Positions 13,564-30,841 of a DNA stretch of 34,349 nt are shown one piece after another (the first letter of the stretch is position 1; the number at the start of each line of letters is the position of its first letter). Source of the stretch: Alcaligenaceae bacterium. Its GTDB lineage: Bacteria > Pseudomonadota > Gammaproteobacteria > Burkholderiales > Burkholderiaceae_B. Under the pieces are notes generated by a model that saw only the letters and a program-made list of their open reading frames with translations, did no database searches and was not told where the DNA came from. The position numbers and the translations under genes are program-made. The stretch spans positions 1 to 34,349 of the forward strand of contig JAJUFI010000009.1 in the NCBI GenBank assembly GCA_029263795.1, given 5' to 3'.

Positions 13564-14247
13564 ATGCGCATTCTGCTGGTCGAAGACGAGCCGGAACTGG
13601 CTCACTGGCTGAGCCGCAGCCTGGAGAAAAAGGGTTTCTCCATACAATGGTCCAATGATGGTCTGGTGGCTTACCGTCGCCTGCAGCTGGAGGAATTTGA
13701 CGCCGTCATTCTGGATCTCGGCATCCCCGGCATGGACGGCCATTCTGTATTGAGCCGCCTGCGCTCGGAAGACAACCGTACGCCCATCCTGATTCTGACG
13801 GCGCGCGATTCCCTGGCCGAACGGGTCGACACTCTGGAGTCAGGTGCCGACGACTTCCTTCCCAAGCCATTCCGTATTGAAGAGCTGGTTGCCCGCCTGC
13901 ATGCCCTGATCCGCCGCAGCCGCGGCAGGGACAAACCGCGCTTCGCCTGCGGCTCGCTTGCCTATGACCTCTCCTCGCAACGCTTCACCCTCAATGGAGG
14001 CCTGCTTTCCGTCACGCCACGCGAAGCCGAAGTGCTGCGCACACTCATACAGCGCAGCGGCGAACCCGTGAACAAGCAGTTCATTCTGGACCGCCTCACC
14101 GAACGTGATGCCGAACTCATTGGGGTGGAAGCCGTGGAAGTAATCATCCACCGCCTGCGCAAGAAGCTGCAGAACTCCGATGTGCAGATAACTACGCTGC
14201 GCGGCATCGGCTACTGCCTTGAGCCCGCTCACGATGCGCCGGCCTGA
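13564..14247 (+). CDS. OmpR-family response regulator, TctD-like
   Basis: A 227-residue two-component response regulator. The receiver domain (1-115) has the acidic pocket VEDEP, phospho-acceptor Asp51 (VILDLGIPGMDG), Thr79 (LILTARD) and Lys101 (LPKPF). A winged-helix DNA-binding domain follows (about 125-220), with LSVTPREAEVLRTL and the recognition region VEAVEVIIHRLRKKL. It is followed 36 bp later by a histidine kinase gene and then tctCBA on the same strand. The system therefore most likely activates the tricarboxylate transporter when its carboxylate is present, as TctD does in Salmonella and Pseudomonas. The ribosome-binding site is weak. The gene is divergent from the glutamate-synthase-like gene across 110 bp in which I see no convincing promoter. 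Confidence 0.92.
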   Translation: MRILLVEDEPELAHWLSRSLEKKGFSIQWSNDGLVAYRRLQLEEFDAVILDLGIPGMDGHSVLSRLRSEDNRTPILILTARDSLAERVDTLESGADDFLPKPFRIEELVARLHALIRRSRGRDKPRFACGSLAYDLSSQRFTLNGGLLSVTPREAEVLRTLIQRSGEPVNKQFILDRLTERDAELIGVEAVEVIIHRLRKKLQNSDVQITTLRGIGYCLEPAHDAPA

Positions 14248-14283
14248 TACGCACCCCGCAGCCGAGACACGGCACCGTTGCCC

Positions 14284-15693
14284 ATGGCACTGAACAGCAT
14301 TCGTTCCACGCTTCTATGGATACTGATTCCCGCGGTGGTACTCACCTCCGGGCTTTCCTTGTGGGTGTCCAGCGTTGAACTGACGGACAGAGTGAATGCG
14401 GCTTTCGACCGTGCACTGGCCGGCGCCCTGCAGTCAATTGCCCTCAATGTAAATACGGAAAGCGGCGGTCTGGCCATGGAACAGCCCTTCTACATGCTGG
14501 AATTCATCGAGCTGGCCACCGACAGCCGCGTATATTTCAGGGTCTCCACGGAGGATGGGCTTTCGGAAATTGGCTATTCGGAACTCCCCATGCCCGAAGA
14601 CGACCTGCTCGAAGATGGTCGCCCCCTTTTCTACAGCGGCGAATACTTTGGTGAAACACTGCGCCTGGCCATCATGGCCATCGGGCCTTCCGAACGTCTT
14701 CAGACTCCGCTGGACAGCCGCATCATCATTCAGGTGGGCGAAAGCACCACCGGCCGGGATGAATTCATCCGCAGGGTTCTGCTGCAGACCGTACGCAAGG
14801 ATTTCGCCCTTCTGCTGCTTTTTGTGTTTCTGATCTCGGCGGGGGCCATCCTTGCCCTGCGCCCCTTGCGCGAAACCAGCGAAATCATTCATCAACGGGC
14901 GTCCGGCAACCTTCAGCCCATAGATGAAGCTACCCTGCCGCGCGAGGTGCGTCCGCTGATACGTGCCATCAACCTGCATATGGAACGATATGCCCGCAAA
15001 ACCACGACGCAGCAGCAATTTCTGGACGATACCTCGCACCAATTGCGCACCCCCCTGTCCGTTTTGATGATGCAGGTGGAATACGCGAAATCGCTGGCCC
15101 GCAGTGAGGAAATGCAGGAAGTGCTTGAAGCCATCCAGCAACGCCTGAACAACACCATCCAGCTCACCAACCAGATGATGGCCCTGGGCCGGGTGCACGA
15201 TGCCGCGGACAAACTCCGCAGCGGTGAATCCCTGGAAGAAGTGGACCTGTGCGAAGTGGCGCGCGACGTGGTGAATGATTTTCTGGCGGCTGCACGGGAA
15301 AAACGCCAGGATTTCGGCCTGGACCTCCCCGACACGCCCATCGTGATCCGGGGTATCGGTTGGCTTCTACACCAGGCCTTGAGCAATATGGTGAACAACG
15401 CCATCAAATACAGCCCGGTTCAGGCCCGCATCACAGTTTCTGCTTACGACACGGAAGACGGCGCAGTGCTGCAGGTTGAAGACAACGGCCCAGGGATGTC
15501 TGCCGAAGATATTGCGCTGGCCGGCCACCGTTTCCGGCGTGGCGCGGCAGGCCGGGCCCAGCATGGTTCCGGCCTGGGCCTGGCGATTGTGCAGACGATT
15601 GCGGATATCAACAATGCACACATGGAGATCGTGCCTGCAACTGCAGATGGAGGACTGACGGTGCGCCTAACCTTCCCTCAGCATTCCTCATAG
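14284..15693 (+). CDS. Sensor histidine kinase, TctE-like
   Basis: A 469-residue inner-membrane sensor kinase. Membrane segment 1 is at about 8-28 (LLWILIPAVVLTSGLSLWV). A periplasmic domain of about 140 residues follows, then membrane segment 2 (FALLLLFVFLISAGAILAL). The kinase core has the H-box with His252 (DTSHQLRTPL), N-box (NMVNNAIKYSP), G1 (VEDNGPGM) and G2 (HGSGLGLAIVQ). It autophosphorylates and passes phosphate to the response regulator encoded just upstream. The periplasmic domain would sense the extracellular carboxylate directly or through the TctC protein. The track starts at a TTG (14278); I use the ATG two codons later. Neither has a clear ribosome-binding site, so translation may be coupled to the response regulator gene. 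Confidence 0.92.
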   Translation: MALNSIRSTLLWILIPAVVLTSGLSLWVSSVELTDRVNAAFDRALAGALQSIALNVNTESGGLAMEQPFYMLEFIELATDSRVYFRVSTEDGLSEIGYSELPMPEDDLLEDGRPLFYSGEYFGETLRLAIMAIGPSERLQTPLDSRIIIQVGESTTGRDEFIRRVLLQTVRKDFALLLLFVFLISAGAILALRPLRETSEIIHQRASGNLQPIDEATLPREVRPLIRAINLHMERYARKTTTQQQFLDDTSHQLRTPLSVLMMQVEYAKSLARSEEMQEVLEAIQQRLNNTIQLTNQMMALGRVHDAADKLRSGESLEEVDLCEVARDVVNDFLAAAREKRQDFGLDLPDTPIVIRGIGWLLHQALSNMVNNAIKYSPVQARITVSAYDTEDGAVLQVEDNGPGMSAEDIALAGHRFRRGAAGRAQHGSGLGLAIVQTIADINNAHMEIVPATADGGLTVRLTFPQHSS

Positions 15694-15702
15694 TCTTATA
15701 TA

Positions 15703-15747: not shown

Positions 15748-15836
15748 TTTCATATTTCTGAAAGGATTGAGAAAGCTTCGATTGGATATCGTAAGTTCCG
15801 GAACATACCGACACACAAAATTCCGGAGGACATCCA

Positions 15837-16829
15837 ATGAAGCTTTACAAGAAAACGCTGGCCGTGGTTGCTGCCGGCCTGATGACGTTCACGGGCATCG
15901 GCGCCGTTCAGGCTCAACAACCCAGCAAGCCCGAGTGTATCGCCCCGGCCCAGCCCGGCGGTGGCTTCGACCTGACCTGTCGCGTCGCCCTGAACGGCTT
16001 TGCCAGCACCGACATTCTCAAGGAGCCCATGCGCACCGTATACATGCCGGGTGGCATTGGTGCCGTGGCTTACAACCACATCGTGGCGCAGCGTCCCGGT
16101 GACCCGAACGCGATAGTGGCGTTTTCTGGCGGTTCACTGCTGAACCTGGCACAGGGCAAGTTCGGCCGCTACAACGTCAATGACGTGCGCTGGCTGGCCG
16201 CCATTGGCAGCGACTACGGCGTTGCCATCGTGCGTGATGACTCGCCCTATAAAGACCTGAAGTCCCTGATGGAAGCCTTCAAGGCAGACCCCACCAAAAT
16301 CGTTCTGGGTGCGGGCGGTTCGGTCGGCAGCCAGGACTGGATGAAGGCCGCCCTTACCGCCAAAGCTGCTGGTGTGGACTACAAGAAGATGCGCTTTGTG
16401 GCGTTTGAAGGCGGTGGTGAAGCACTGACTGCCCTGCGCGGCGGCCATATCCAGGCCTACATGGGCGATGCTGCAGAAGCCCGTACCATGCTCGACGGTG
16501 GCGCGCCCATCCGCGTCCTGGCAGTGTTCAACGACCAGCGCCTGCCCGGCAGCATGTCGGAGATCCCCACGGCCACGGAGCAGGGCTTTGAAATCATCTG
16601 GCCCATCATCCGCGGCTTCTACGTTGGCCCCAAGGTGTCCGACGAGCAATACCAGTGGTGGGTGCAGGCTTTCGACAAGCTTATGCAGACACCTGAATTC
16701 GCCAAGCTGCAGGAACAACAAGGCCTGTTCCCCTTCAACAAGACTGGCGATGAGCTCGACGCCTACGTGAAGGAGCGCGTCAAGTTTTACACCGAACTGG
16801 CGGACAGTTTCGGTCTGATCAAGAAGTAA
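15837..16829 (+). CDS. tctC: TTT-family periplasmic substrate-binding protein TctC
   Basis: A 330-residue periplasmic binding protein for a tripartite tricarboxylate transporter. A signal peptide covers 1-26 (KKTLAVVAAGLMTF..., cleavage after VQA). The mature protein opens with PECIAPAQPGGGFDLTC, the conserved first carboxylate-binding loop of TctC proteins; Cys34 and Cys48 could form a disulfide. Later motifs are VYMPGGIGAVAYN and VLGAGGSVGSQDW. TctC proteins capture citrate or other carboxylates and deliver them to TctAB. A strong ribosome-binding site (CCGGAGG, 8 nt) suggests high expression. It is the first gene of the tctCBA operon, downstream of its two-component system, and a hairpin separates it from tctB. 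Substrate not determinable from sequence alone. Confidence 0.93.
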   Translation: MKLYKKTLAVVAAGLMTFTGIGAVQAQQPSKPECIAPAQPGGGFDLTCRVALNGFASTDILKEPMRTVYMPGGIGAVAYNHIVAQRPGDPNAIVAFSGGSLLNLAQGKFGRYNVNDVRWLAAIGSDYGVAIVRDDSPYKDLKSLMEAFKADPTKIVLGAGGSVGSQDWMKAALTAKAAGVDYKKMRFVAFEGGGEALTALRGGHIQAYMGDAAEARTMLDGGAPIRVLAVFNDQRLPGSMSEIPTATEQGFEIIWPIIRGFYVGPKVSDEQYQWWVQAFDKLMQTPEFAKLQEQQGLFPFNKTGDELDAYVKERVKFYTELADSFGLIKK

Positions 16830-16946: not shown

Positions 16947-17393
16947 ATGCTGACGCTCAATGACCGCGTATTGGGCATTGCGGCGCTGATTTTCGCAGCG
17001 CTGATCACTGCCTTCGGTTACGACCTAGAACCACCTTTTTCCTACGAACCGGTCGGCCCCAAAGCCTTCCCACTTCTGCTTGCGCTGATCATCGCCCTGT
17101 GCGGCCTGCGCCTGGTCATCAAAGGCGGCGGCGAGGTAGAAGCCAATCCCGAAGGTGCCAACGTCCGCATTGCCACCATGGTGGCTTACCTGGCCGGCTA
17201 TGCCTTCCTTTTCCAGTGGATAGGCTTCATTGCCGCCACGACGCTCATGGTCACCCTGATCGGCCGCCTGTTCCAGGCAACCTGGGCCCAGGCAATCATT
17301 GGTGGCGTCGTCATGAGCGTCGGGCTTTTCTTCCTCTTTGACAAGGGTCTGGATGTGGTCCTGCCCGCCGGCATTCTGGGAGATCTCCTGTGA
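16947..17393 (+). CDS. tctB: TTT-family small permease subunit TctB
   Basis: A 148-residue inner-membrane protein with four hydrophobic segments (for example IAALIFAALITAFGYDL and LAGYAFLFQWIGFIAATTLMVTLIG). It contains the TctB signature GPKAFPLLLALIIALCGL near residues 37-54. TctB is the small, poorly conserved membrane subunit that works with TctA to move the carboxylate across the inner membrane. A ribosome-binding site (CGGAGA) lies about 12 nt before the ATG. Its stop overlaps the GTG start of tctA by 4 bp (GTGA), showing translational coupling. Confidence 0.88.
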   Translation: MLTLNDRVLGIAALIFAALITAFGYDLEPPFSYEPVGPKAFPLLLALIIALCGLRLVIKGGGEVEANPEGANVRIATMVAYLAGYAFLFQWIGFIAATTLMVTLIGRLFQATWAQAIIGGVVMSVGLFFLFDKGLDVVLPAGILGDLL

Positions 17394-18913
17394 GCAGCGT
17401 ACTTGAATATCTTTCTCTGGGCTTCAGCGTTGCCTTTACGGCGACCAACCTGCTGGTCGCAGCCATTGGCTCCTTCATCGGGACGATTGTCGGCGTACTT
17501 CCCGGCCTGGGCCCCATCAACGGCGTGGCCATGCTGGTGCCCATTGCCTTCGCCATGCAGCTGCCCCCGGAAACCGCACTCATTCTGCTGGCTGCGGTCT
17601 ATGTGGGTGCTGAATACGGTGGCCGCATCACCTCCATTCTGATCAACGTGCCAGGCGAGGCCGCCGCAGTGATGACCACTCTTGATGGCTACCCGCTGGC
17701 TCGCCAGGGGCTGGCCAGTGTGGCGCTGTCACTTTCAGCGTGGTCGTCCTTCATCGGTTCCACAATTGCCATCATCGGCATTGTGCTGCTAGCCCCGCTG
17801 CTGGCCAATTTTGCCGTGGCTTTCGGACCGGCCGAGTACTTCGTTCTCATGGTCTTCGCCTTCTGCGCCCTGACAAGTCTGCTGGGCGATGAGCCGGTCA
17901 AGGGCATACTCGCCGCCATGCTGGGCTTGTTCATCTCGACCGTGGGCGTGGACTCCAATTCCGGTGTCTACCGCTACACCTTCGACCTGCCAAACCTGGC
18001 CGATGGGATTGACTTCGTTGTTGTGGTGATCGGCCTGTTTGCCGTCGCCGAAATGCTGCAAATGCTCGAAAACCTGCTGGGCGGGACATCAATTGAAGTT
18101 CCAAAGAGCGAACGCAAGCTGTTCAACCTGAAAGAACTCGCTTTCACCTGGTGGTCCACTGTCCGCGCTGGTGTCACCGGGTTCGTCATCGGCATCCTGC
18201 CGGGAGCTGGCGCCAGCGTGGCGTCCGCCGTAGCTTACGCCAATGAGAAGAAGATCTGCGAGGGCAAGGATCCAAACGCGAAGTTCGGCCAGGGCGACAT
18301 GCGCGGCCTGGCCGCCCCCGAAGCCGCCAATAACAGCGCTGCCACGGGTTCCTTCATTCCCATGCTGACACTGGGCGTACCCGGATCCGGCACCACCGCC
18401 GTGATGATGGGCGCGCTGACTCTCTACAACATCACTCCCGGTCCCGTGCTCTTTGACGCACAACCGCAAATTGTCTGGGGGCTGATTGCCTCCCTGTTCG
18501 TGGCCAACGTCATCCTCTTCCTGATGAACGTGCCCCTGGTGCGGCTGTTTGCCTCCATGCTGTCCATTCCGCCACGCCTGCTGGTGCCGGGCATCCTGGC
18601 CATCAGCTTCATTGGGGTATATGCCATCAATGCCACCCGCTTCGACCTGCTCATGGTGGTTGGCATCGGTGTCATCGGCTACTTCCTGCGCAAGATGAAT
18701 GTGCCCATGGCACCCATGGTGCTGGGTGTAGTGCTTGGCGACATGATGGAGCAGAATCTGCGCCGCGCACTTTCCATCACCAATGGTGAAATTTCCATCC
18801 TGTTCGAGAGCAAGATCTCCATCGCGCTGTGGATTCTTGCCGCCCTGGTTGCCATTGTCCCACCGGTTTTGCGTAAACTAGCCAGCAAGAAGGCATCAGT
18901 CCCTGCCAATTGA
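17390..18913 (+). CDS. tctA: TTT-family large permease subunit TctA
   Basis: A 507-residue polytopic inner-membrane protein, normal length for TctA. It contains the two duplicated signature loops, GVLPGLGPINGVAMLVPIAF (about 35-54) and GILPGAGASVASAVAY (about 266-281), which mark the two inverted halves. MTTLDGYPLARQG and PEAANNSAATGSFIPMLTLGVPGSGTTA are also typical. It forms the carboxylate pathway, probably driven by the proton or sodium gradient. It starts at GTG 17390, overlapping tctB. A strong intrinsic terminator 68 bp downstream ends the operon. Confidence 0.93.
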   Translation: MSSVLEYLSLGFSVAFTATNLLVAAIGSFIGTIVGVLPGLGPINGVAMLVPIAFAMQLPPETALILLAAVYVGAEYGGRITSILINVPGEAAAVMTTLDGYPLARQGLASVALSLSAWSSFIGSTIAIIGIVLLAPLLANFAVAFGPAEYFVLMVFAFCALTSLLGDEPVKGILAAMLGLFISTVGVDSNSGVYRYTFDLPNLADGIDFVVVVIGLFAVAEMLQMLENLLGGTSIEVPKSERKLFNLKELAFTWWSTVRAGVTGFVIGILPGAGASVASAVAYANEKKICEGKDPNAKFGQGDMRGLAAPEAANNSAATGSFIPMLTLGVPGSGTTAVMMGALTLYNITPGPVLFDAQPQIVWGLIASLFVANVILFLMNVPLVRLFASMLSIPPRLLVPGILAISFIGVYAINATRFDLLMVVGIGVIGYFLRKMNVPMAPMVLGVVLGDMMEQNLRRALSITNGEISILFESKISIALWILAALVAIVPPVLRKLASKKASVPAN

Positions 18914-19064: not shown

Positions 19065-20120
19065 ATGTTCATGTTCATGACCAACGTCACACGCATCATC
19101 CTGGGTCTGTTCACTGCCACCGTCGGCGCCCTTGCCGCGGTCAAGCTGGGGATGCCGCTGCCCTGGATGATCGGTGCCCTGCTGGCCACCGCCATCTCGA
19201 AAATGGCGGGCAGCCCAGCCTGCAGCCACAAAGTGTTCCGCAATGGTGGCCAATGGGTAATCGGCGCCTCCCTGGGGCTTTACTTCACCCCGGAAATGCT
19301 GCGGCTCATTGCCCTCAACCTGCCCTTCATCCTGGCAGGAACGGTCTTCGCCCTGGGCCTGGGAGGCATGGGCGCCTGGATATTGCGCACGCTGGGCGGG
19401 GCCGACTTCAAGACGGCGTGGTTCGCCAGTGCCATAGGCGGGGCCAGCGAAATGACCACTCTCGCCGAGCGCAACCATGCCCGCGCCGACCTGGTCGCCT
19501 CAGCACACAGCCTGCGCATGCTCATGGTGGTGGTCATCATCCCCTTCGCCTTTCAGGCGCTCGACATCCACGGCAGCGATGCCTCCCAGCTTTCCCGCAG
19601 CGGCTTCTTCGACCCCGGCGGCCTGCTCCTGCTCATTCTACTGACCAGCGTTATGGGGCTGGTGTTCCAGCGCTTCAGCCTGCCCAACCCCTGGGTGTTG
19701 GGCCCCCTGCTCGTCACTGCCCTGCTGACCAGCCAGGAGGTCGTCTTCACCTATCTGCCGGTGGAAATGACTAATCTGGGCCAGTTGCTGATAGGTTGGT
19801 CGCTAGGCGATAAATTCGGTTCCGACTTTTTTCGCCGGGCACCCCGTTACCTGAGCGTGGTGGCGCTGGCCAATGCACTCAACATTTTGCTGGCCTTCTG
19901 CTTCGGCTATGTGGTTTCTCTGCTCTCGGGCATCGCCTTTCCCACCTTGGTGCTGGGCACCAGCCCGGGAGGCATTGCTGAAATGGCCATCACTGCCAAG
20001 GTACTGATGCTGGGAGCACCTGTGGTCACCGCATTTCATGTCATACGCATGGTTGGTGTGCTGCTCGCCACTGCACCGTTGTATCGAGTGCTGGTGAGGC
20101 GCATGGAATCATCAAGTTAG
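19065..20120 (+). CDS. AbrB-family membrane protein (Pfam 'transition state/ammonia monooxygenase' family)
   Basis: A 351-residue membrane protein with about ten hydrophobic segments in two similar halves. The first half has GMPLPWMIGALLATA and later ASAIGGASEMTTLAE; the second has PNPWVLGPLLVTALLTS and GTSPGGIAEMAITAKVL. The paired PW-M/V-G-LL and GG-EM motifs define the AbrB family (not the Bacillus AbrB regulator). The E. coli member is sometimes called a regulator of aidB expression, and the old ammonia monooxygenase label is misleading. Transport is likely, substrate unknown. Such genes often sit beside TTT transporters in Burkholderiales-type genomes. Three in-frame ATGs (19065, 19071, 19077) lie close together with no clear ribosome-binding site. 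A CoA-transferase gene follows after 40 bp, probably co-transcribed. Confidence 0.85.
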   Translation: MFMFMTNVTRIILGLFTATVGALAAVKLGMPLPWMIGALLATAISKMAGSPACSHKVFRNGGQWVIGASLGLYFTPEMLRLIALNLPFILAGTVFALGLGGMGAWILRTLGGADFKTAWFASAIGGASEMTTLAERNHARADLVASAHSLRMLMVVVIIPFAFQALDIHGSDASQLSRSGFFDPGGLLLLILLTSVMGLVFQRFSLPNPWVLGPLLVTALLTSQEVVFTYLPVEMTNLGQLLIGWSLGDKFGSDFFRRAPRYLSVVALANALNILLAFCFGYVVSLLSGIAFPTLVLGTSPGGIAEMAITAKVLMLGAPVVTAFHVIRMVGVLLATAPLYRVLVRRMESSS

Positions 20121-20160: not shown

Positions 20161-21360
20161 ATGTCCACACAGATTCTTGCCGGCATCCGTGTCATCGAGC
20201 TCGGTCAGCTCATTGCCGGGCCTTTTGCCGCCAAGACCCTGGCTGACTTTGGCGCAGAAGTCATCAAGATCGAACCGCCGGGCCAGGGCGACCCGCTGCG
20301 CAAGTGGCGCCTGCTGCATGAAGGCACTTCCGTGTGGTGGGAGGCCCAATCACGCAGCAAGAAATCGGTGTGCGTGGACCTGCGCCAGCCGGAAGGGCAG
20401 GAGGTTGTGCGTCGTCTCGCCGCCGAAGCCGACGTGCTGATCGAAAACTTCCGGCCGGGCACCATGGAAAAATGGGGTCTGTCGTGGGAAGTCCTGCATG
20501 AACTGAATCCGCGTCTGATCATGCTGCGGGTATCAGGCTATGGCCAGAATGGGCCGCGCGCCCAGGAACCGGGCTTTGCCGCAGTGGGCGAAGCATTCGC
20601 CGGCATCCGCTATCTGAATGGTGAACCTGGACGGGCCCCGGTACGGGCGGGCTTATCCCTGGGAGACACCATTGCGGGCCTGCACGGTGCCCTCGGTGTG
20701 CTGCTGGCCCTCTATCAGCGTGACGCACGGGGCGGCAGCGGGCAAATGATAGACGCCGCCCTTTACGAAAGCCTGTTCAACCTGACGGAAAGCCTGCTCC
20801 CCGAATATTCCGTCTTCGGGGCGGTGCGTGAGCCTGCTGGTGCAGCCCTGCCCGGCATCGCACCCTCCAATGCGTACAAATGTCACGATGGCAGCTATGT
20901 CCTCATCGCCGGCAACGGCGACGGAATTTTCCAGCGCCTCATGCACTGCATTGGGCGGCCCGACCTGGCGGATGACCCCGGTCTCGCCCACAACGATGGC
21001 CGAGTGGCACGTGTGGAGGAGCTGGACGCCGCCATCGAAGCCTGGACGCTGACTCAAACCGACATACCCGCAATGCTTGAGAAGCTAAAGGAGGCACGGG
21101 TGCCGTCAGGGCTTATCTACTCCATCCGCGATATTGCTCAGGAACCGCACTACCGCGAGCGTGGCGCCATCACTGCGATAAAGGCGGCCAGCGGCATCCA
21201 GGTGGAGATGCCTGCCGTGTTCCCGATTCTTTCAGGCAACCCCGGCGCTGTGCGCCACCGTGCACCCACCTTGGGCGAGCACACCGACCAAGTTCTGGCC
21301 GAAGCAGGCTTTGATGCCGAAACGCTGGCAGACCTCCGGGCACGGGGAATTCTGGCCTGA
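20161..21360 (+). CDS. CaiB/BaiF-family (class III) CoA-transferase
   Basis: A 399-residue class III CoA-transferase, normal length. The N terminus has VIELGQLIAGPFAAKTLADFGAEVIKIEPP, the family's CoA-binding region. SYGQNGP-like VSGYGQNGPRA follows near 125, and SLGDTIAGLHG contains the Asp expected to form the aspartyl-CoA anhydride. The enzyme moves CoA from a donor such as succinyl- or acetyl-CoA to a carboxylic acid, in the cytoplasm. Placed between two TTT importers, it may activate the imported acid; candidates from the family include dicarboxylates such as malate, citramalate, itaconate or mesaconate. This is inference. A ribosome-binding site (AAGGAG, 10 nt) supports the ATG. Confidence 0.9.
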   Translation: MSTQILAGIRVIELGQLIAGPFAAKTLADFGAEVIKIEPPGQGDPLRKWRLLHEGTSVWWEAQSRSKKSVCVDLRQPEGQEVVRRLAAEADVLIENFRPGTMEKWGLSWEVLHELNPRLIMLRVSGYGQNGPRAQEPGFAAVGEAFAGIRYLNGEPGRAPVRAGLSLGDTIAGLHGALGVLLALYQRDARGGSGQMIDAALYESLFNLTESLLPEYSVFGAVREPAGAALPGIAPSNAYKCHDGSYVLIAGNGDGIFQRLMHCIGRPDLADDPGLAHNDGRVARVEELDAAIEAWTLTQTDIPAMLEKLKEARVPSGLIYSIRDIAQEPHYRERGAITAIKAASGIQVEMPAVFPILSGNPGAVRHRAPTLGEHTDQVLAEAGFDAETLADLRARGILA

Positions 21361-21497
21361 GGTTCAGTTTGATGCCCGCATTCTTGAGCGTGGGCCCCAA
21401 TGCCGGCAGCCGGACTCCGGAACAATCCTGGTATGGGGCTTGCTGCTTTGCCCCCAGGCATCGCAACGCGGTGCAGACCATACGACGGAGCCTGTTC

Positions 21498-21926: not shown

Positions 21927-21983
21927 GGGCGTCCGCCTGCTATGCTGGGGGTTCATGCCTACCCCGCTGCCCTTGAACTGCAC

Positions 21984-22937: not shown

Positions 22938-23219
22938 ATGGCACGAGCCTCTGCCCGTCATATCCTCGTCGACACCGAAGCCAAATGCAATGAGCTGAAG
23001 CAGGCTATCGAAAATGGTGCCGACTTCGCTCAGGTTGCGAAGGAAAACTCCCGCTGCCCCTCCAGCCGCGATGGCGGTGCGCTTGGCACCTTCGGCCGCG
23101 GTGAAATGGTTCGCGAATTCGACGAAGTGGTTTTCAGCGCCCCCGTCGGCGTCGTTCAGGGCCCCGTCAAGACTCAGTTCGGCTACCACCTGGTGGAAGT
23201 CACCGAACGTCAGGACTGA
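22938..23219 (+). CDS. ppiC: Single-domain parvulin-type peptidyl-prolyl isomerase
   Basis: A 93-residue protein, the same size as E. coli PpiC. It opens with ARASARHILVDTEAKC (parvulin strand 1 with the first active-site His), then NGADFAQVAKENSRCPSSRDGGALGTFGRGEMV and ends QFGYHLVEVTERQD with the second conserved His. It speeds cis-trans turnover of prolyl bonds in the cytoplasm; no signal peptide is present. A ribosome-binding site (CAGGAG, 9 nt) fits the ATG. Two tandem hairpin terminators follow, so it is insulated from the two-component system downstream. Confidence 0.93.
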   Translation: MARASARHILVDTEAKCNELKQAIENGADFAQVAKENSRCPSSRDGGALGTFGRGEMVREFDEVVFSAPVGVVQGPVKTQFGYHLVEVTERQD

Positions 23220-23322: not shown

Positions 23323-24054
23323 GTGATCTGGAATTGTCTCATCATCGAGGACGACCGGGAAAACGCGCACTACATCGCAGAAGGCTTTCGCGAGCTGGGC
23401 CACTGGCCCGTCGTCTGCCACGACGGAGTCGAAGGGCTGCACCGTGCATCCACCGAAACCTGGGACCTCATCATTCTCGATCGCATGCTGCCCAATCAGG
23501 TGGATGGCCTGACCATCCTCACCAAACTGCGGGCGGCCGGCATCAAGACGCCCGTCATCGTACTCAGTGCGCTCACCGCACTCGATGAACGCGTAAAAGG
23601 CCTGAAACTGGGTGGAGACGACTACCTGACCAAGCCTTTTGCCCTCATCGAACTGCTGGCCAGGGCCGAGGCACAGGTTCGCAGCTCACGCAGCAACCGC
23701 AGCGAGCGCATACTGGAATACGCCGACCTTCGGTACGACCTCACCATACCGCGCGTAACCCGGGCGGGCCGGGTTCTCAACCTGCAGCCCAGGGAATGCA
23801 GGCTGCTGGCCTACATGATGACCCACCCCGACCAAGTGCTGACCCGCGCCATGTTGCTGGGTGCGGTCTGGGGCTATCAGTTCAACCCGCAGACCAACGT
23901 GATCGACGCCACTGTCAGCCGCCTCAGGCAGAAAGTTGACGGAGACTTCTCCCCGCCCTTGATTCACACCGTTCGGGGCGTGGGCTACCGTTTTTCGACC
24001 GACTCCGAACCTGCATTCTCACAGGCCTCCGGCGAGCCATCTCATGCCGTTTGA
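23323..24054 (+). CDS. OmpR-family response regulator of the second TTT locus
   Basis: A 243-residue response regulator. The true start is GTG 23323, with AGGAGG 6 nt upstream; the track's longer version runs back through ppiC and both terminators. The receiver has IIEDD, phospho-acceptor Asp53 (IILDRMLPNQVDG), Ser82 in the usual Thr/Ser place and Lys104 (LTKPF). The winged-helix domain has LNLQPRECRLLAYMM and TNVIDATVSRLRQKVD. It overlaps the histidine kinase gene by 11 bp, so the pair is co-translated. Downstream are tctB and tctA without tctC. A 7-4-7 direct repeat in front of tctB is a plausible target of this regulator. Confidence 0.93.
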   Translation: MIWNCLIIEDDRENAHYIAEGFRELGHWPVVCHDGVEGLHRASTETWDLIILDRMLPNQVDGLTILTKLRAAGIKTPVIVLSALTALDERVKGLKLGGDDYLTKPFALIELLARAEAQVRSSRSNRSERILEYADLRYDLTIPRVTRAGRVLNLQPRECRLLAYMMTHPDQVLTRAMLLGAVWGYQFNPQTNVIDATVSRLRQKVDGDFSPPLIHTVRGVGYRFSTDSEPAFSQASGEPSHAV

Positions 24055-25462
24055 GCGACTGCTCACGGGGTGGCAGCGGCTTTGGGGTTCGGTTGCCTTC
24101 CGACTGACTCTCAATTACAGCTTGCTGGCGGCAGGTACTACTGCCTTCCTGCTCATATTCGCATACGGGAAGATTGTCGACCTGCTACAGAATCAGTACT
24201 CGCGGCAGGTCGCCCTGGCTGCGAACCGCCTGGCCTCCCACTACGACGCCTATGGTCTCGAAGCTCTGAGGCAGGAAATTGAACAGCTGCTTTCCGACCA
24301 GACAGATATCGACACCGAGATGTTCCTGCTGCTCTCGGCCCAAAATGAGCGTCTGGTCGGCAACCTGGAACTGCTGCCCGTCGAAGATATCGACGAATCC
24401 ATCAGCGCCACCGACTTGCTGGCCGAGGCCCAAGCCCCCCTGCTGCTGAACGTATTGCGTGAGGGGGCTCCCGTCACGGGCCTGCTGACCCTGCGTGAGC
24501 TGGGCCAGGGCAACCGGCTGATCATTGGCCGGGACATCGCCGACATGCATGAGATTCAGGCGCTGATCGGCAATGCGGTACTCGCCGCCACCCTGGTGGC
24601 ACTGGTCCTGGTTCTGGTGGGCACGACCATTTTCCGGCGAGAGCTGCGCAACCGTGTACAGGCAATTCGTGAAACCGCTCTGCGGGTGGGTACGGGCGAA
24701 CTCACCAGACGCGTACCGGATGCAGCTGAAATCGACGAATTCGTCCAGCTGCGCTACGACATCAACTACATGCTGGACCGCATCGAGAACCTGATGACGG
24801 GTGTGCGCAATGTTTCCGATTCGATTGCCCACAACTTGCGCACCCCACTGGCGCGTGTACTCGGTCGCCTGGAAAAAGCGCGCTACGGCAATCAGGACTG
24901 TGAAAGCCTGAAGGCCGCCATGGAAGCCGCATCAGTGGAAATCATGGAATTAATCACGGTTTCCGAAAAGCTCCTGCTCATTGCCGAGGCCAATTCCGGC
25001 CTGCAGCGCCAGAATTTCTCAACCGTGTCACTCCCAGCCCTGGTTGAAGATGTCTGCGAACTGTACGAACCGGCGGCAGCGGAAGATGGCATACGTCTGA
25101 GCTGCCATCTGAAGCCAGTCACCATTCAGGCAGACCCGGACCTGCTGATCAGCGCCATCACCAACCTTATAGACAACGCGTTCAAGTACGCCGGCTCCGG
25201 CTCCCAAATTGTTCTGGAAGTGGACACATACGAGCGCATGGCACGGGTCAGTGTCACGGACGACGGCCCTGGTGTGCCCGACGAGGAGCTTGACCGGCTA
25301 GGGACCCGTTTCCACCGTCTGGAACAAAGCCTGCCCGGTTTTGGCCTGGGGCTGGCCTCCGTACGGGCCATTGCTGCCCTTCATGGTGGCCGGGTCGAGT
25401 TCAGCAATGCCCGACCGGGACTGAGGGTGGACATTCTGCTGCCTAACAGTGCGAAACAGTAA
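24044..25462 (+). CDS. Sensor histidine kinase of the second TTT locus
   Basis: A 472-residue membrane kinase. Membrane segment 1 is at about 18-42 (FRLTLNYSLLAAGTTAFLLIFAYG), then a periplasmic domain of about 130 residues, and segment 2 at about 177-198 (LIGNAVLAATLVALVLVLVGTTIF). A HAMP linker follows (VGTGELTRRVP). The H-box holds His263 (SDSIAHNLRTPL); HN replaces the commoner HE or HD. The catalytic domain has NLIDNAFKYAG, VTDDGPGVP and FGLGLASVRAIAALHGG. It belongs to the EnvZ/QseC-like kinases and is only distantly similar to the first kinase in the window, so the two systems probably sense different ligands. Confidence 0.93.
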   Translation: MPFERLLTGWQRLWGSVAFRLTLNYSLLAAGTTAFLLIFAYGKIVDLLQNQYSRQVALAANRLASHYDAYGLEALRQEIEQLLSDQTDIDTEMFLLLSAQNERLVGNLELLPVEDIDESISATDLLAEAQAPLLLNVLREGAPVTGLLTLRELGQGNRLIIGRDIADMHEIQALIGNAVLAATLVALVLVLVGTTIFRRELRNRVQAIRETALRVGTGELTRRVPDAAEIDEFVQLRYDINYMLDRIENLMTGVRNVSDSIAHNLRTPLARVLGRLEKARYGNQDCESLKAAMEAASVEIMELITVSEKLLLIAEANSGLQRQNFSTVSLPALVEDVCELYEPAAAEDGIRLSCHLKPVTIQADPDLLISAITNLIDNAFKYAGSGSQIVLEVDTYERMARVSVTDDGPGVPDEELDRLGTRFHRLEQSLPGFGLGLASVRAIAALHGGRVEFSNARPGLRVDILLPNSAKQ

Positions 25463-25485: not shown

Positions 25486-25514
25486 CATTACAGAACGGTA
25501 ATGTGATGGTAATG
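25486..25514 (+). promoter_or_regulatory. 11-bp phased repeats upstream of the second tctB: likely OmpR-family binding site
   Basis: GGTAATG occurs at 25497-25503 and 25508-25514, separated by TGAT: the 7-4-7 layout typical of PhoB/OmpR-type tandem sites. CATTACA, almost the reverse complement of the same word, sits one further 11-bp step upstream (25486-25492). The block is 67 bp before the tctB start. A possible -10 (TAACAT, 25546-25551) follows at a suitable distance, with no good -35, as expected for an activated promoter. Confidence 0.6.
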
Positions 25515-25580: not shown

Positions 25581-26045
25581 GTGAATATCAGAATCAAAAA
25601 TCAGCAGGACTTCTGGTCCGGCGTAATGTTCGTGCTCGTTGGAATCGGTTTCGCCCTAGGCGCCACCAAGTATTCCATGGGTACGGCGGCACGCATGGGG
25701 CCGGGCTATTTCCCATTCTGGCTGGGCACCTGCCTGGCACTGTTGGGAGCATTTGTCGCATTCGGCGCGACATCCAGCAAGGCTGAGGAAACCACAGTCG
25801 AGAAATTCGACTGGCCCATTGTCTTCATTCTGCTGGGCAGCGTAGTCCTTTGCGGGCTCCTGATGAACTACCTGGGCGTCTACATCAGCGTCTTTCTGCT
25901 GGTGTTCCTCAGTAGCTTTGCAAGCCACGTATTCAACTGGAAAGTTGCCGCCATCACCGGCCTGTGCCTGGTGATCTTCGTGTGGGGTGCATTCATAAAA
26001 GGCCTGGGACTTATCTTCCCCCTGTGGCCCTCTTTCATGGGCTGA
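25581..26045 (+). CDS. tctB: TTT-family small permease subunit TctB (second system)
   Basis: A 154-residue membrane protein with four hydrophobic segments. The TctB mark ARMGPGYFPFWLGTCLALLGAFVAF is near residues 37-60. GTG start 25581 has an excellent ribosome-binding site (AAGGAGG, 7 nt). It works with the TctA encoded 17 bp downstream. Unlike the first system there is no tctC on either side, so the binding protein must be encoded elsewhere or borrowed. The spacing, shared strand and upstream regulator pair indicate an operon expressed on demand. Confidence 0.88.
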   Translation: MNIRIKNQQDFWSGVMFVLVGIGFALGATKYSMGTAARMGPGYFPFWLGTCLALLGAFVAFGATSSKAEETTVEKFDWPIVFILLGSVVLCGLLMNYLGVYISVFLLVFLSSFASHVFNWKVAAITGLCLVIFVWGAFIKGLGLIFPLWPSFMG

Positions 26046-26062: not shown

Positions 26063-27568
26063 ATGGAACTGTTTGACAACCTCATCTTGGGCTTTTCCGT
26101 CGCCCTGACCCTGGAGAACCTGGCCTACTGTCTGCTAGGCTGTCTTCTGGGTACGCTGATCGGCGTTCTGCCTGGCATCGGCCCCGTGCCGACCATCGCC
26201 ATGCTTCTGCCCATCACCTACGTGCTGCCGCCCACCGCAGGGCTCATCATGTTGGCCGGTATCTATTACGGGGCGGCCTATGGGGGTTCTACCACCGCCA
26301 TTCTGGTGGCCCTGCCCGGTGAAACTTCCGCAGTGGTGACAGTGCTGGACGGCCACCAGATGGCCCGCAATGGGCGCGCTGGTTCGGCCCTGGCCATTTC
26401 CGCACTGGGTTCCTTCTTCGCCGGCTGTGTCACCACCTTCCTTATTGCAGGCTTTGCACCGCCCCTGGCAGAAGTGGCCTTCAAGTTCGGCCCCGCGGAA
26501 TATTTCTCGCTCATGGTGCTGGGCCTGATCGGCGCCGTGGTGCTGGCATCCGGCTCCCTGCCCAAAGCCATCTGCATGATCTTCCTGGGTCTGCTGCTGG
26601 GCATGGTGGGTACGGATGTGAACTCCGGCGTGGCCCGCTTCGATTTCGGCATTCCCGAGCTGCAGGACGGCATCGACTTCGCCGTGGTGGCCATGGGTGT
26701 GTTCGGTTTCTCCGAAATCATGAGCAACCTGGAGTTGCGTGACCAGCGCGTGGACCTTACCGATAAGGTCGGCCAGCTCTACCCCAACAAGCAGGAGTTC
26801 AGGGAAGCCTGGCCCGCCGTCATTCGCGGCACTGCTATCGGCTCGGCCCTGGGCATTCTGCCGGGCGGCGGCGCGGTGCTTTCCTCCTTCGCGTCCTACA
26901 CGCTGGAAAAGAAACTTTCCAAGGAGCCGGAGCGCTTCGGCAAGGGCCACCCTGCGGGGGTGGCGGGCCCCGAATCCGCCAACAATTCGGGTTCTCAGGC
27001 TTCCTTCATTCCGCTGCTCACCCTGGGCATTCCCGGCAACGCCGTGACTGCCCTGATGATCGGTGCGATGACCATCCACAACATCCAGCCCGGCCCGCAG
27101 GTCATGTCCAGCCACCCCGAACTGTTCTGGGGCCTGATCGTGTCCATGTGGATCGGCAACCTGATGCTGGTCATCCTCAACCTGCCGCTCATCGGTTTGT
27201 GGGTGAAACTGCTGACCGTCCCCTACCGCATTCTGTTCCCGGCCATTCTGGTGTTCTGCACCATCGGGGTCTACTCTCTGAACTACAACGTGTTCGACAT
27301 CTGGGTGACCGCCGCCTTCGGCCTGGTGGGCTACATCTGGGTGAAGCTGAAATGCGAGGGAGCGCCATTGCTGCTGGGTCTGGTGCTTGGGCCCATGATG
27401 GAAGAGAACTTCCGTCGTGCCCTGCTGCTGGCGCGCGGTGACTACTCCACCTTCGTGACCCGCCCGCTGTCGCTCAGCCTGCTGGTGATGGCGGTGATTC
27501 TGGTGGCGCTGGTGGCACTGCCCTCCATCAAGGCCAAGCGCGAAGAGGCCTTTGTGGAAGAAGGCTGA
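26063..27568 (+). CDS. tctA: TTT-family large permease subunit TctA (second system)
   Basis: A 501-residue polytopic membrane protein. Signature loops are GVLPGIGPVPTIAMLLPITY (about 34-53) and GILPGGGAVLSSFASYTLEKK (about 262-282). VLDGHQMARNGRAGSALA and PESANNSGSQASFIPLLTLGIPGNAVTA are also family-typical. It is clearly related to the TctA at 17.4 kb but differs through most of its length, so it is a separate lineage and not a recent tandem copy. A ribosome-binding site (AGGAG, 9 nt) supports the ATG. Two hairpins follow; the second is a strong terminator. Confidence 0.93.
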   Translation: MELFDNLILGFSVALTLENLAYCLLGCLLGTLIGVLPGIGPVPTIAMLLPITYVLPPTAGLIMLAGIYYGAAYGGSTTAILVALPGETSAVVTVLDGHQMARNGRAGSALAISALGSFFAGCVTTFLIAGFAPPLAEVAFKFGPAEYFSLMVLGLIGAVVLASGSLPKAICMIFLGLLLGMVGTDVNSGVARFDFGIPELQDGIDFAVVAMGVFGFSEIMSNLELRDQRVDLTDKVGQLYPNKQEFREAWPAVIRGTAIGSALGILPGGGAVLSSFASYTLEKKLSKEPERFGKGHPAGVAGPESANNSGSQASFIPLLTLGIPGNAVTALMIGAMTIHNIQPGPQVMSSHPELFWGLIVSMWIGNLMLVILNLPLIGLWVKLLTVPYRILFPAILVFCTIGVYSLNYNVFDIWVTAAFGLVGYIWVKLKCEGAPLLLGLVLGPMMEENFRRALLLARGDYSTFVTRPLSLSLLVMAVILVALVALPSIKAKREEAFVEEG

Positions 27569-27583
27569 TCAGACGTCCGAGGG

Positions 27584-27604: not shown

Positions 27605-27621
27605 TCCGCCTGCAAACATGA

Positions 27622-27664: not shown

Positions 27665-27679
27665 CTTGTTTTTCAGGTG

Positions 27680-28438
27680 ATGGCTTCCAAGAACCCTGCA
27701 TCCAACGTAAAGACAGCGCTGCGCGTCATCGAAATCATCGAAATCTTCGCGCGTGAAGGCAAGCCCCTGTCGCTAACCGAACTGTCCCGCCAGTTGGGCG
27801 CCCCGGTTTCCAGCTGCCTCAACCTGCTGCGCACACTGACCGGGCTGGGCTATCTCTACGAAACCGCGCCCCGGCAGGGCTATTACCCCACCGGCCGCCT
27901 GCTTGCCATGGCCCAGAGAATCGCACGGGCCGACCCCATTCTGGAAAAGATAGGGCCGACGCTGGCCGCCTTGCGTGACGCGGTGACGGAAACCGTTGTG
28001 CTGGCCAAGCTGGGCCCGGACGCCGCCGTCGTTTATCTAGAGGTGTTCCCCTCCCCGCATCCCATCAGCTATGTAGCCGACCCGGGCGCACAGCGCCACC
28101 TTCACAGCAACTCCCTGGGCAAGGCGCTGATGTCGCTCATGAGCGAACAGGAAAGGGCTCGCCTGCTGAAGAGCCGCAAGCTGGAAAAACTGACCGGACG
28201 CACTCTGGTCACGCTGGAGGAGATCGAGCGCGAGATTGCCGTTTCCCGGGAAAGAGGCTGGTTTCAGAACCTGGGGGAATCGATCCCTGATGTAGGTGCC
28301 GTGGCCTGGCCCCTGCAGATATCCGGCGCGGAATATGCCGTTTCCATCGCGGGGCCGCTCTACCGCATCCAGCCCAATCTGGAAAACCTGGCCCAGCAAC
28401 TGCGCGTTGCCTGCCAGGTCATGAGCCAGAGGCGGTGA
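27680..28438 (+). CDS. IclR-family transcriptional regulator
   Basis: A 252-residue regulator. The N-terminal winged helix-turn-helix is at about 10-75 (KTALRVIEIIEIFAREG, then SLTELSRQLGAPVSSCLNLLRTLTGLGYLYE). The C-terminal effector domain has ETVVLAKLGPDAAVVYLEVF, the typical HSNSLGKALMSLMS and RERGWFQNLGESIPDVGAVAWPL. Such proteins sense carboxylates or aromatic acids and repress or activate catabolic operons. It converges, with 1 bp between stops, with the acyl-CoA dehydrogenase/CoA-transferase operon, its most likely target. The track starts at GTG 27677; I use the adjacent ATG. There is no good ribosome-binding site, and a strong terminator occupies the leader, so expression may be low or depend on read-through. 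Confidence 0.92.
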   Translation: MASKNPASNVKTALRVIEIIEIFAREGKPLSLTELSRQLGAPVSSCLNLLRTLTGLGYLYETAPRQGYYPTGRLLAMAQRIARADPILEKIGPTLAALRDAVTETVVLAKLGPDAAVVYLEVFPSPHPISYVADPGAQRHLHSNSLGKALMSLMSEQERARLLKSRKLEKLTGRTLVTLEEIEREIAVSRERGWFQNLGESIPDVGAVAWPLQISGAEYAVSIAGPLYRIQPNLENLAQQLRVACQVMSQRR

Positions 28439-28439
28439 A

Positions 28440-29606
28440 TCAATAAGACTTGGGCATGCCCAGCACTTTCTCTGCAATGAAGCACAGAATCAGCTGAGGG
28501 CTGACCGGGGCGATGCGCGGAATGAAGCTTTCCCGCAGGTAGCGCTCCACATGGTATTCACGGGCGTAGCCCATGCCACCAAGGGTCTGGACGGCAGTCT
28601 GACAGGCGTTGAATGCAGCTTCCGCGCCCAGATACTTCGCACTGTTTGCGTAGGGGCCACAAGGCTCGCCCGCGTCATAAAGCTCGGCCGCCTTCTGCAC
28701 CATCAGGTCGGCCGCCTCGAGCTGCATCCATGCGTGAGCCAGGGGATGCTGGATGCCCTGGTTCTGGCCGATGGGGCGGCCAAACACCACCCGTTCCTTC
28801 GCATATTCGCCTGCCTTGCGTAACGCCGCGTGGCCCAGGCCCACAGCCTCTGCTGCAATCAGAATGCGTTCCGGATTGAGACCGTGAAGAATGTATTCAA
28901 AGCCGCGTCCTTCCTCGCCTATGCGGTCCTCCACCGGTATCTCCAGCCCATCAATGAACAGCATGTTGGAGTCGACCGCCTTGCGTCCCATCTTGTCGAT
29001 TTCCCTCACCTCGATATGGCTGCGGTCCAAATCGGTATAGAAGAGCGAAAGACCCTGGGTGGGCTTCTGTACCTCGGAAAGCGGAGTGGTACGCGCCAGC
29101 AACAGCATCTTGTCGGCCACCTGCGCGGTGGATATCCAGATCTTGCGCCCGTGCACAATATAGCGGTCGCCTTCCCTGCGGGCGCGCGTCGACAAGCGGG
29201 TCGTATCCAGGCCGGCGTCCGGTTCGGTCACGGCGAAACACGCCTTCTGCTTTCCGGCTATCAGTGGCGGCAGGAAACGGGCACGTTGCTCATCATTCCC
29301 GAACACCACCACGGGGTTAAGGCCGAAAATATTCATGTGTATTGCCGAAGCGCCGCTGAACCCCGCTCCCGAACGGGCAATGGTGTGCATCATCAGGGCC
29401 GCTTCCCGCATGCCCAGCCCCGCCCCTCCATAGGGCTCCGGCATGGCGATTCCCAGCCAGCCGGCCTCTGCCAGATCGCGATGGAAATCATGTGGAAACT
29501 CGCCGTCCCGATCTCGAGTGTGCCAGTAGTCATCGTCATAACGGCTGCAGAGGTTTTCAATGGCAGCGACCAGGGCTTTGTGATCGTCTGACTGGATGAA
29601 ACTCAT
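28440..29606 (-). CDS. Acyl-CoA dehydrogenase
   Basis: A 388-residue FAD enzyme that oxidises an acyl-CoA to the 2,3-enoyl-CoA and passes electrons to ETF. It has AMPEPYGGAGLG, the signature CFAVTEPDAGLDTT (about 123-136), RKIWIST, and the C-terminal LGGMGYAREYHVERYLRE. The short-chain enzymes' catalytic Glu in YEGT is absent; here the tail reads RIAPVSPQLILC. A Glu in helix G (LNPERILIAAEAVG, Glu246) aligns with the catalytic base of isovaleryl- and long-chain enzymes and probably replaces it. The ATG overlaps the stop of the upstream CoA-transferase by 4 bp (ATGA), so the two are made together. The transferase product, or something derived from it, is probably this enzyme's substrate. Confidence 0.92.
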   Translation of the reverse strand: MSFIQSDDHKALVAAIENLCSRYDDDYWHTRDRDGEFPHDFHRDLAEAGWLGIAMPEPYGGAGLGMREAALMMHTIARSGAGFSGASAIHMNIFGLNPVVVFGNDEQRARFLPPLIAGKQKACFAVTEPDAGLDTTRLSTRARREGDRYIVHGRKIWISTAQVADKMLLLARTTPLSEVQKPTQGLSLFYTDLDRSHIEVREIDKMGRKAVDSNMLFIDGLEIPVEDRIGEEGRGFEYILHGLNPERILIAAEAVGLGHAALRKAGEYAKERVVFGRPIGQNQGIQHPLAHAWMQLEAADLMVQKAAELYDAGEPCGPYANSAKYLGAEAAFNACQTAVQTLGGMGYAREYHVERYLRESFIPRIAPVSPQLILCFIAEKVLGMPKSY

Positions 29607-30841
29607 CGGGACTCCTGAACGGTGGGCTGGCTCAGCGTGAACCTGGCCTTGATGTCATCTTCTGTATATCCGGCTTCGGCAAGGACTTCTTTCGTGTGCT
29701 CTCCAAGGCGGGGGGCGTGACGATGCAGACCTGCCGGTGTACGTGAATAGCGCCCCACCGGCGCCGGTGTGTGGATTTCGCCTTCCGAAGGGTGATGCTG
29801 CGCCCGCACCATGCCCACTGCGCGGATGTGCGGGTCGTCCAGCAGGTCTTCAACGCTGTAGAGTGGTGCAACGGGAATGTCGGCCGCCGCCAGGGCTTCG
29901 AGCCAATGCCGGGAATTACGCGTGGCGAGCACTTCCGCCACCAGCCGGTAGGCGGCATCAATATTCCGCGAACGTGCCGTATGGGTGCTGAAGCGGGGGT
30001 CTGACCTGAGCTCTGGCCTGCCGATGAGCTCGAAGAACCGTGTCCAATGCTTGTCGTTGTAGATCAGTGCGCTGATGTACCCATCGGAAGTGGCGTACGG
30101 CCTGCGATGCTCGACCAGCAGCCGTGTGTAGCCGGTTTCACCATTGACGGGATCAAAGCTGCGACCAGCCAGATGGTCTCCCAGCACCAGCTGCGCCATG
30201 GCCTCGAACATGGGAATTTCGATCGCCTGGCCGCGGCCAGAGGTGCGCGCTTCCAGCACCCCCGCGAGAATGGCAATGGCGACATGCATGCCGACCGCGC
30301 GGTCAGCCAGGGTCAGGGGTGCGTAGCGGGGAACATCGCCCGAATTGCGCTGGTAGAGCGAGGGCAGGCCGGTCATTCCCTGTATGAGGTCGTCATAGGC
30401 GGGTTTGCCGGCATATGGCCCCTGCTCCCCAAAACCGTAGGCACCCACGTACACAATGGCCGGGTTCGCCGCCGCCACCGTTTCATAGTCCAGCCCCAAC
30501 CGTCGCATGGCTTGCGGGCGAGTGTTGTAGAGGAGCACATCCGCCGATTTCGCCAGGCGCAGGCAGGCTTCCTGCCCCGTTTCCGTTTTCAGGTCCAAAA
30601 CAACGGACCGCTTGTTGCGATTCAGATGCAGATAGAGGGCGCCCATGCCGGGATTCCTCATGGGGCCGACCGCCCGCAGGTTGTCACCGCTGGGCGGCTC
30701 GATCTTGATCACGTCGGCGCCCAGGTCACCAAGGATCTGCGTGGCGTACGGCCCCATCACCACCGAGCTGAGGTCCATCACGCGTACGCCAGCCAGCGGC
30801 CCCAGGCGCGCCGCCGCGCTTCCGGCATTTTTTTCTTTCAT
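29603..30841 (-). CDS. CaiB/BaiF-family CoA-transferase, second copy
   Basis: A 412-residue class III CoA-transferase. It has VRVMDLSSVVMGPYATQILGDLGADVIKIEPP at about 19-50, GAYGFGEQGPYAGKPAYDDLIQG near 135-157, and TLADRAVGMHVAIAILAG with the expected catalytic Asp. It differs widely from the first copy at 20.2 kb. In this family the sequence normally begins about 10-18 residues before GPLAGVRV, which fits the ATG at 30841. That ATG has only a weak ribosome-binding site. A much better one serves an upstream ATG (30901) in the same frame, closed by TAG, giving a 15-codon leader. A palindrome and promoter candidate lie further upstream. The gene forms an operon with the acyl-CoA dehydrogenase. 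The acid substrate is unknown. Confidence 0.9.
   Translation of the reverse strand: MKEKNAGSAAARLGPLAGVRVMDLSSVVMGPYATQILGDLGADVIKIEPPSGDNLRAVGPMRNPGMGALYLHLNRNKRSVVLDLKTETGQEACLRLAKSADVLLYNTRPQAMRRLGLDYETVAAANPAIVYVGAYGFGEQGPYAGKPAYDDLIQGMTGLPSLYQRNSGDVPRYAPLTLADRAVGMHVAIAILAGVLEARTSGRGQAIEIPMFEAMAQLVLGDHLAGRSFDPVNGETGYTRLLVEHRRPYATSDGYISALIYNDKHWTRFFELIGRPELRSDPRFSTHTARSRNIDAAYRLVAEVLATRNSRHWLEALAAADIPVAPLYSVEDLLDDPHIRAVGMVRAQHHPSEGEIHTPAPVGRYSRTPAGLHRHAPRLGEHTKEVLAEAGYTEDDIKARFTLSQPTVQESR

Follow-up and report, generated by a model that had tools for sequence, protein, structure and literature searches.

Two tricarboxylate importers and two CoA-transferases within 17 kb of an Alcaligenaceae genome: a probable mosaic of separately inherited units and a candidate shared permease

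Genomes of the Burkholderiales encode tens to hundreds of solute-binding proteins (SBPs) of the TctC/Bug type for a small number of permeases, and the literature has yet to settle which of these permeases the orphan SBPs use (PMC5812351, PMC5994714, PMC11452294); that a single permease is shared amongst them is a hypothesis already stated in the literature (PMC5994714, PMC11452294). Amongst the described systems, the bctDE-bctCBA genes of Bordetella pertussis, for which the ligand is citrate and the BctC protein feeds both transport and signalling (PMC5812351), have the layout of one of the importers considered here. We report a computational analysis of contig JAJUFI010000009.1 (assembly GCA_029263795.1, Alcaligenaceae bacterium), a stretch of 34,349 nucleotides that is called the window throughout. 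Positions 13564-30841 of the window hold two tripartite tricarboxylate transporter (TTT) permease pairs, each beside a two-component system, together with two CaiB/BaiF (family III) CoA-transferases, an acyl-CoA dehydrogenase (ACAD), an AbrB-type membrane protein and an IclR regulator.

A first-pass annotation, made from the sequence alone, had proposed that these genes form one combined pathway for the sensing, import, CoA activation and oxidation of carboxylic acids. The gene families that it named are all intact, full-length open reading frames (ORFs) where it had placed them, with matches far beyond chance, and each of the two importers does have a two-component system and a conserved promoter repeat of its own. 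The combined pathway itself is not borne out, the modules having different regulators and repeats and appearing to be inherited separately. We consider it likely that the 17 kb form a mosaic, made up of four units that are each inherited on their own: an importer of the citrate type and its sensor pair (module A), the CoA-transferase CaiB1, a second sensor pair with a permease that has no binding-protein gene beside it (module B), and a unit of IclR, ACAD and the CoA-transferase CaiB2 (module C).

The window is contig C165 of G000, a draft genome of 2.73 Mb in 234 contigs that is listed as 100% complete, and was compared with its congeners (G001-G007); L-numbers denote fetched loci and C-numbers the contigs of the window's genome. 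Families were assigned by Pfam and subfamilies by NCBIfam profiles with their cut-offs. The comparisons drew on 20 loci from 15 genera for module A (L151-L170), 19 loci linked to the second sensor kinase, HK2, for the module B repeat (neighbours checked in L131-L150), 80 fetched loci for module C, 13 loci fetched outside the genus for CaiB1 and 79 sequences for the residue counts of the ACAD.

Probable separate inheritance of the four units

The gene-neighbourhood comparison that the first-pass annotation had itself suggested finds A, CaiB1, B and C at separate loci outside the genus; the genes are scattered, an outcome which that annotation had named as speaking against its proposal. Within the genus the units also come and go separately: CaiB1 is kept where module A is absent (G001, G005, G006), genes are inserted between AbrB and CaiB1 in G007, and module C was not seen in G001, G003, G005 or G007, with the proviso that several of the genus genomes are incomplete drafts and that single absences in G002, G003, G004 and G005 carry little weight. 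In the window itself, three genes unrelated to carboxylate uptake separate the AbrB-CaiB1 pair from the second sensor pair, namely a small ORF for which a Pfam search gave no match, an EcsC-family gene and a PpiC-type rotamase, the last of which had been left out of a gene list whose named members are otherwise present. Furthermore, neither the A-type nor the B-type promoter repeat is found upstream of CaiB1 or of module C.

Module A is the unit with the closest described relatives. Its order, from the response regulator RR1 and the sensor kinase HK1 through TctC and TctB1 to TctA1, is unbroken in all of the 20 loci, and AbrB lies directly 3' of TctA1 in ten of them. RR1 is 47% identical to Salmonella TctD and has TctD (NF012023) as its best NCBIfam match, at 239 bits and below the cut-off of 337; TctC is 59% identical to its Salmonella and 62% to its Serratia counterpart, and TctA1 shares 62% identity with Salmonella TctA, as against only 42% for TctA2 of module B. 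Alignment of the gap between HK1 and TctC reveals one conserved direct repeat, TGAAAGS-N5-GAAAGS, without a mismatch in the window and in 20 of 20 relatives, and a GAAAG repeat with 11-bp spacing is also present before tctC of Salmonella and Serratia. Judged by gene set, orthology and this common repeat, module A is a TctCBA/TctDE citrate-type TTT system, in which TctC would bind citrate or a similar tricarboxylate, and HK1 and RR1 would sense tricarboxylate and activate the promoter at the TGAAAG repeat, a putative binding site of the regulator.

A single carboxylate pathway, with the acids brought in by both importers, activated by CaiB1 and CaiB2 and oxidised by the ACAD, draws its appeal from physical closeness, and the same observations weigh against a mosaic. 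CaiB1 starts 40 bp behind AbrB, inviting an operon reading, and A and CaiB1 also stand in tandem in G003 and G004 (three genomes with the window's own); B and C adjoin in the window's genome and in G006; and local co-expression of neighbouring modules, or read-through between them, is possible within the genus. In Advenella (g56), too, a distance of 12-18 kb separates a TctA1 from a TctA2-class permease, in view of which the clustering of the importers may not be pure accident. Set against a single pathway are the dissociation of the modules, the three housekeeping-like genes that stand between them, the unlike promoter repeats of A and B, absent at CaiB1 and C, and the company that the enzymes keep elsewhere, where C has its own Bug and CaiB1 its own Bug and HMG-CoA-lyase-like gene (HMGL). 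Because synteny splits the modules both within the genus and across the family, we reject the single-pathway island, which we regard as highly improbable; the juxtaposition of A, CaiB1, B and C does not by itself show a common function. In the Alcaligenaceae, the closeness of genes says little about whether they share a pathway, since the catabolic modules come with a Bug of their own and without a permease, and the likely mosaic is the reading carried forward below.

Module B and the question of a shared permease

Where two TTT importers had been annotated, the first is indeed a complete TctCBA, whereas the second consists of TctB and TctA without a TctC gene: no tctC stands beside tctBA2 in the window, nor between the neighbours in L131-L150, and the set is not a complete importer by its own genes. 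In the genome as a whole there are 42 matches to TctC and five to TctA (two of the five being short fragments), and TctA2 has a strong match in 107 of the 151 genomes of the family. Amongst the 53 genomes with both TctA1 and a TctA2-class permease, the latter is the more conserved in 46 (median 87% against 76%, where best hits may mix two TctA2-like paralogs). Because there are 42 TctC for few TctA, because no TctC is adjacent and because TctA2 is highly conserved, we lean slightly towards the view that TctBA2 serves several orphan Bug proteins in common, the genes of which lie at other loci.

The two sensor kinases are of different types: HK1, with its 2CSK_N domain, resembles TctE, whereas HK2 and its response regulator RR2 come nearest to CopRS/CzcRS, below the cut-offs (the nearest NCBIfam models of RR2 are cztR, silR and copR); membership of the heavy-metal CopRS/CzcRS group was rejected at 182.7 versus 292.6 bits for HK2 and 203 versus 279 bits for RR2. 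The most likely start of the RR2 gene is 23323; an ORF taken from the first ATG in the frame (23014) overlaps PpiC. An AlphaFold model of HK2 (mean pLDDT 68.8) and a PDB fold search, which matched kinase cores only, gave no hint of the HK2 ligand. Seven genera have an HK2 ortholog linked to TctB2, four of them with the genes in tandem and three with a divergent arrangement, and a GGTAATG-type box with at most one mismatch lies upstream of tctB2 in 17 of the 19 HK2-linked loci, tandem and divergent alike; at the same threshold, the 20 module A loci hold one stray copy. TctBA2-class loci without HK2 have GAAAG repeats upstream of tctB instead, some with a TctDE-like pair nearby. The window's genome also contains a second TctBA pair, on contig C203 (L207, 3-1851), the TctA of which is 93% identical to TctA2 and which has triplicated GAAAG repeats upstream in place of the GGTAATG box.

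Across the window's genome the only exact copy of the RR2 box is the one upstream of tctB2, and a single copy with one mismatch is found on contig C224, where it precedes by 25 bp a TctA-less operon encoding a TctB-like protein, a Bug and a gamma-glutamyltranspeptidase (GGT) (L206, G000:C224:9000-18356, 2889-6190). By virtue of this box the C224 operon is a candidate second member of an RR2 regulon. In the mechanism that we propose, HK2 and RR2 would switch on tctBA2 through the GGTAATG repeat, where linkage and repeat are observed and binding is what we infer, and TctBA2 would carry substrates delivered by orphan Bugs, one set of which would come from the TctB-Bug-GGT operon with the same box. 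A fuller version, put forward tentatively and at somewhat less than even chances, makes TctBA2 a general permease for many Bugs with a two-component system of its own, RR2 coupling supply to the TctB-Bug-GGT genes through the common operator, and has the same permease class stand under a TctDE-type sensor in other genera.

Several points weigh against a shared permease of this kind: locus L134 has RR2, HK2 and TctB2, with TctA2 not detected; the common box before a GGT operon was seen in one genome only; and the stronger conservation of TctA2 may be due to something else. A dedicated permease, serving one substrate and one SBP encoded elsewhere, such as the Bug of the C224 GGT operon, is a less probable but serious contender, since the occurrence of the RR2 box at only two promoters (at most one mismatch) fits a two-operon, one-substrate regulon, possibly for a gamma-glutamyl compound; yet there are at most five TctA for the 42 SBPs, and the permease is both widespread in the family and kept under unrelated sensors. 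It is unlikely that, in this genus, B supplies C, with the Bug of C docking on the neighbouring TctBA2. The two modules do adjoin in G000 and G006, and C has a Bug and no TctA, but that Bug is apparently deleted in the window's own genome, B occurs without a detected C in G001, G003 and G007, and there is no RR2 box at module C. Under the shared-permease reading, module B becomes a concrete candidate for the permease of the orphans, with a defined sensor pair, a defined putative operator and a candidate second regulon member, and the shared-permease question thereby becomes testable.

CaiB1 and module C

None of the listed genomes from outside the genus has a CaiB1 ortholog of at least 73% identity within 20 kb of TctA1. 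CaiB1 is found instead beside HMGL and Bug in nine of the 13 loci, mostly with a LysR gene upstream, and two further loci have LysR and Bug without HMGL. Because it is never near TctA1 outside the genus, sits with HMGL and Bug there and survives without module A, CaiB1 is best read, on these gene neighbourhoods, as the orphaned remnant of a LysR-CaiB-HMGL-Bug operon of another pathway. A genus-wide search gave no close full-length ortholog of the HMGL of that operon, the best match (66%) being a fragment beside a paralogous CaiB on contig C154. Both CaiB1 and CaiB2 match PF02515 over its full length (positions 1-366 of 366) as family III CoA-transferases. The succinate-glutarate CoA-transferase (SUGCT) model NF052585 is the best match of CaiB1, which was rejected as a member at 257.5 bits against a cut-off of 750. 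The genes inserted before CaiB1 in G007 (L114 10646-14670) encode an NADPH-reductase-like protein, an IclR regulator, a Bug, an FAH-like hydrolase and a VOC protein; in G001, a block between EcsC and PpiC (L112 8193-14207) encodes a Bug, a cyclase-like protein, an AMP-ligase and an ACAD.

The genes of module C belong to a cupin-Bug-CaiB2-ACAD operon that was found in 43 of the 80 loci, including those of Variovorax, Advenella and Alcaligenes, usually with IclR nearby; only two of the 43 have a TctA in the flanking sequence that was fetched (none in 41). Cupin and Bug are missing from the window: the alignment with congener locus L031 breaks off at the cupin start and resumes at the CaiB2 start, with 62 bp and a remnant ORF of 15 codons between, and no ortholog of the Bug is left in the window's genome. 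By this alignment, the two genes are deleted in this strain. With the private Bug and the cupin gone, uptake for C, if it still occurs, must use another binding protein. CaiB2 overlaps the start of the ACAD by 4 bp. All 79 sequences of the ACAD family have Glu246 within LNPERI, and the canonical EGT glutamate is lost, with APVS in its place; we take the position of Glu246 and the LNPER arrangement to be those of isovaleryl-CoA dehydrogenase (IVD). CaiB2 would move CoA, probably from succinyl-CoA, onto the imported acid, the ACAD would oxidise the acyl-CoA using Glu246, and IclR would control the pair.

No NCBIfam equivalog fits CaiB1, CaiB2 or the ACAD, and for this reason no substrate is assigned to the CaiB2-ACAD pair. 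That it oxidises glutarate, methylsuccinate or 3-sulfinopropionate, like known CaiB-ACAD pairs, is quite unlikely: a family III transferase is indeed paired with an ACAD and the SUGCT model gives CaiB2 its highest score, but all scores fall far below the cut-offs, with CaiB2 rejected as SUGCT (NF052585, 241.9 bits against 750) and the ACAD both as 3-sulfinopropionyl-CoA desulfinase (NF042439, 203 against 600) and as glutaryl-CoA dehydrogenase (NF045552, 209 against 470). Compared with the methylsuccinate cluster (PMC12290011), moreover, the conserved operon lacks MmgE/PrpD, a hydratase and a lyase. The mercaptosuccinate/dithiodipropionate cluster of Advenella (PMC5373536) was also set aside, its desulfinase Acd not being matched above cut-off by the ACAD and its gene order being different. 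We also weighed, as an additional step of C, an HMGL that lies downstream of the ACAD in Variovorax; in the Alcaligenaceae it does not adjoin the ACAD. A search of the literature found no paper describing a CaiB-HMGL-Bug or a cupin-Bug-CaiB-ACAD operon. Contig C82 (L209, 6099-9471) carries another LysR / ACAD-CaiB pair, whose ACAD is of the same subfamily (LNAER, APIS) and 46% identical to that of the window; it was rejected as a methylsuccinate cluster, no MmgE/PrpD being found nearby.

Features of the four units and of the genes between them, in window coordinates
Feature	Position	Strand	Basis
RR1, TctD-like OmpR-family response regulator (A)	13564..14247	+	PF00072/PF00486
HK1, TctE-like sensor kinase, 2CSK_N + HisKA + HATPase (A)	14278..15693	+	PF08521 E 4.9e-27
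Promoter repeat TGAAAGG-N5-GAAAGC, putative TctD box (A)	15759..15776	+	conserved repeat
TctC solute-binding protein (A)	15837..16829	+	PF03401 E 2.2e-19
TctB1 small membrane subunit (A)	16947..17393	+	PF07331 E 4.2e-23
TctA1 large membrane subunit (A)	17390..18913	+	PF01970 E 1.7e-152
AbrB-family membrane protein, companion (A)	19065..20120	+	PF05145 E 8.5e-77
CaiB1, family III CoA-transferase	20161..21360	+	PF02515 E 1.2e-121
Small conserved protein without family, likely start 21516, outside any module	21369..21926	+	conserved in genus
EcsC-family protein, unrelated neighbour	21942..22832	+	PF12787 E 1.7e-24
PpiC-type peptidyl-prolyl isomerase, unrelated neighbour	22938..23219	+	PF13616 E 2.1e-23
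RR2, OmpR-family response regulator (B)	23323..24054	+	PF00072/PF00486
HK2, sensor kinase without 2CSK_N (B)	24044..25462	+	HATPase_c E 1.1e-21
Promoter repeat ACGGTAATG-N4-GGTAAT, putative RR2 box (B)	25495..25513	+	conserved upstream of tctB2
TctB2 (B)	25581..26045	+	PF07331 E 1e-21
TctA2, SBP-less TTT permease (B)	26063..27568	+	PF01970 E 6.2e-164
IclR-family regulator (C)	27677..28438	+	PF01614 E 4.2e-24
Acyl-CoA dehydrogenase (ACAD), IVD-type Glu246 (C)	28440..29606	-	PF00441 E 4.3e-39
CaiB2, family III CoA-transferase (C)	29603..30841	-	PF02515 E 1.9e-113
Deletion scar: operon leader + 15-codon remnant ORF (C)	30846..30908	-	blastn vs congener loci L031/L032, junction alignment

Beyond these units, an amino-acid-type ABC importer (SBP_bac_3, permease and ATPase; 31139-33455) adjoins module C and also stands beside module B in genus g14 (L135-L137). 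Two further genes encode, at 7707-10121, a large catalase whose C-terminal domain is DJ-1-like and, at 4263-7043, a protein resembling the E1 of pyruvate dehydrogenase.

Comparison with described systems

Module A shares with tctDE-tctCBA of Salmonella the same genes, at the identities given above for TctC and TctA1, and the same promoter repeat, although the regulator operon is divergent in Salmonella and co-directional in module A, where the sensor operon lies upstream as described for bctDE-bctCBA of Bordetella. It departs from both of these citrate importers in the AbrB gene that follows TctA, and in that citrate would here be a ligand assigned by likeness. CaiB1 and CaiB2 resemble the SUGCT and HMG CoA-transferases in being full-length family III proteins with NF052585 as best match, at scores too low for membership. 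Like the IVD-type ACADs, the window ACAD has its catalytic glutamate in L-N-P-E-R and has lost that of the EGT motif; unlike them, it has a CoA-transferase and a Bug SBP as partners. Module C has in common with the Ict-Mcd-Msi clusters for methylsuccinate and itaconate (PMC12290011) a family III transferase and an ACAD, and its conserved operon differs from them in having none of the isomerase (MmgE/PrpD), hydratase and lyase.

The described systems closest to module B are the SBP-less tctAB sets that coexist with orphan Bugs, in Bordetella and Advenella and, as TpiBA/TphC, in Comamonas, where there are likewise few permeases, many SBPs and TctBA without an adjacent TctC. No report of a dedicated two-component system and a shared operator for an SBP-less TctBA was found in the literature searched. 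Module B is set apart from these SBP-less sets by its dedicated, CopRS-like two-component system and by a conserved putative operator that also stands before an orphan TctB-Bug-GGT operon.

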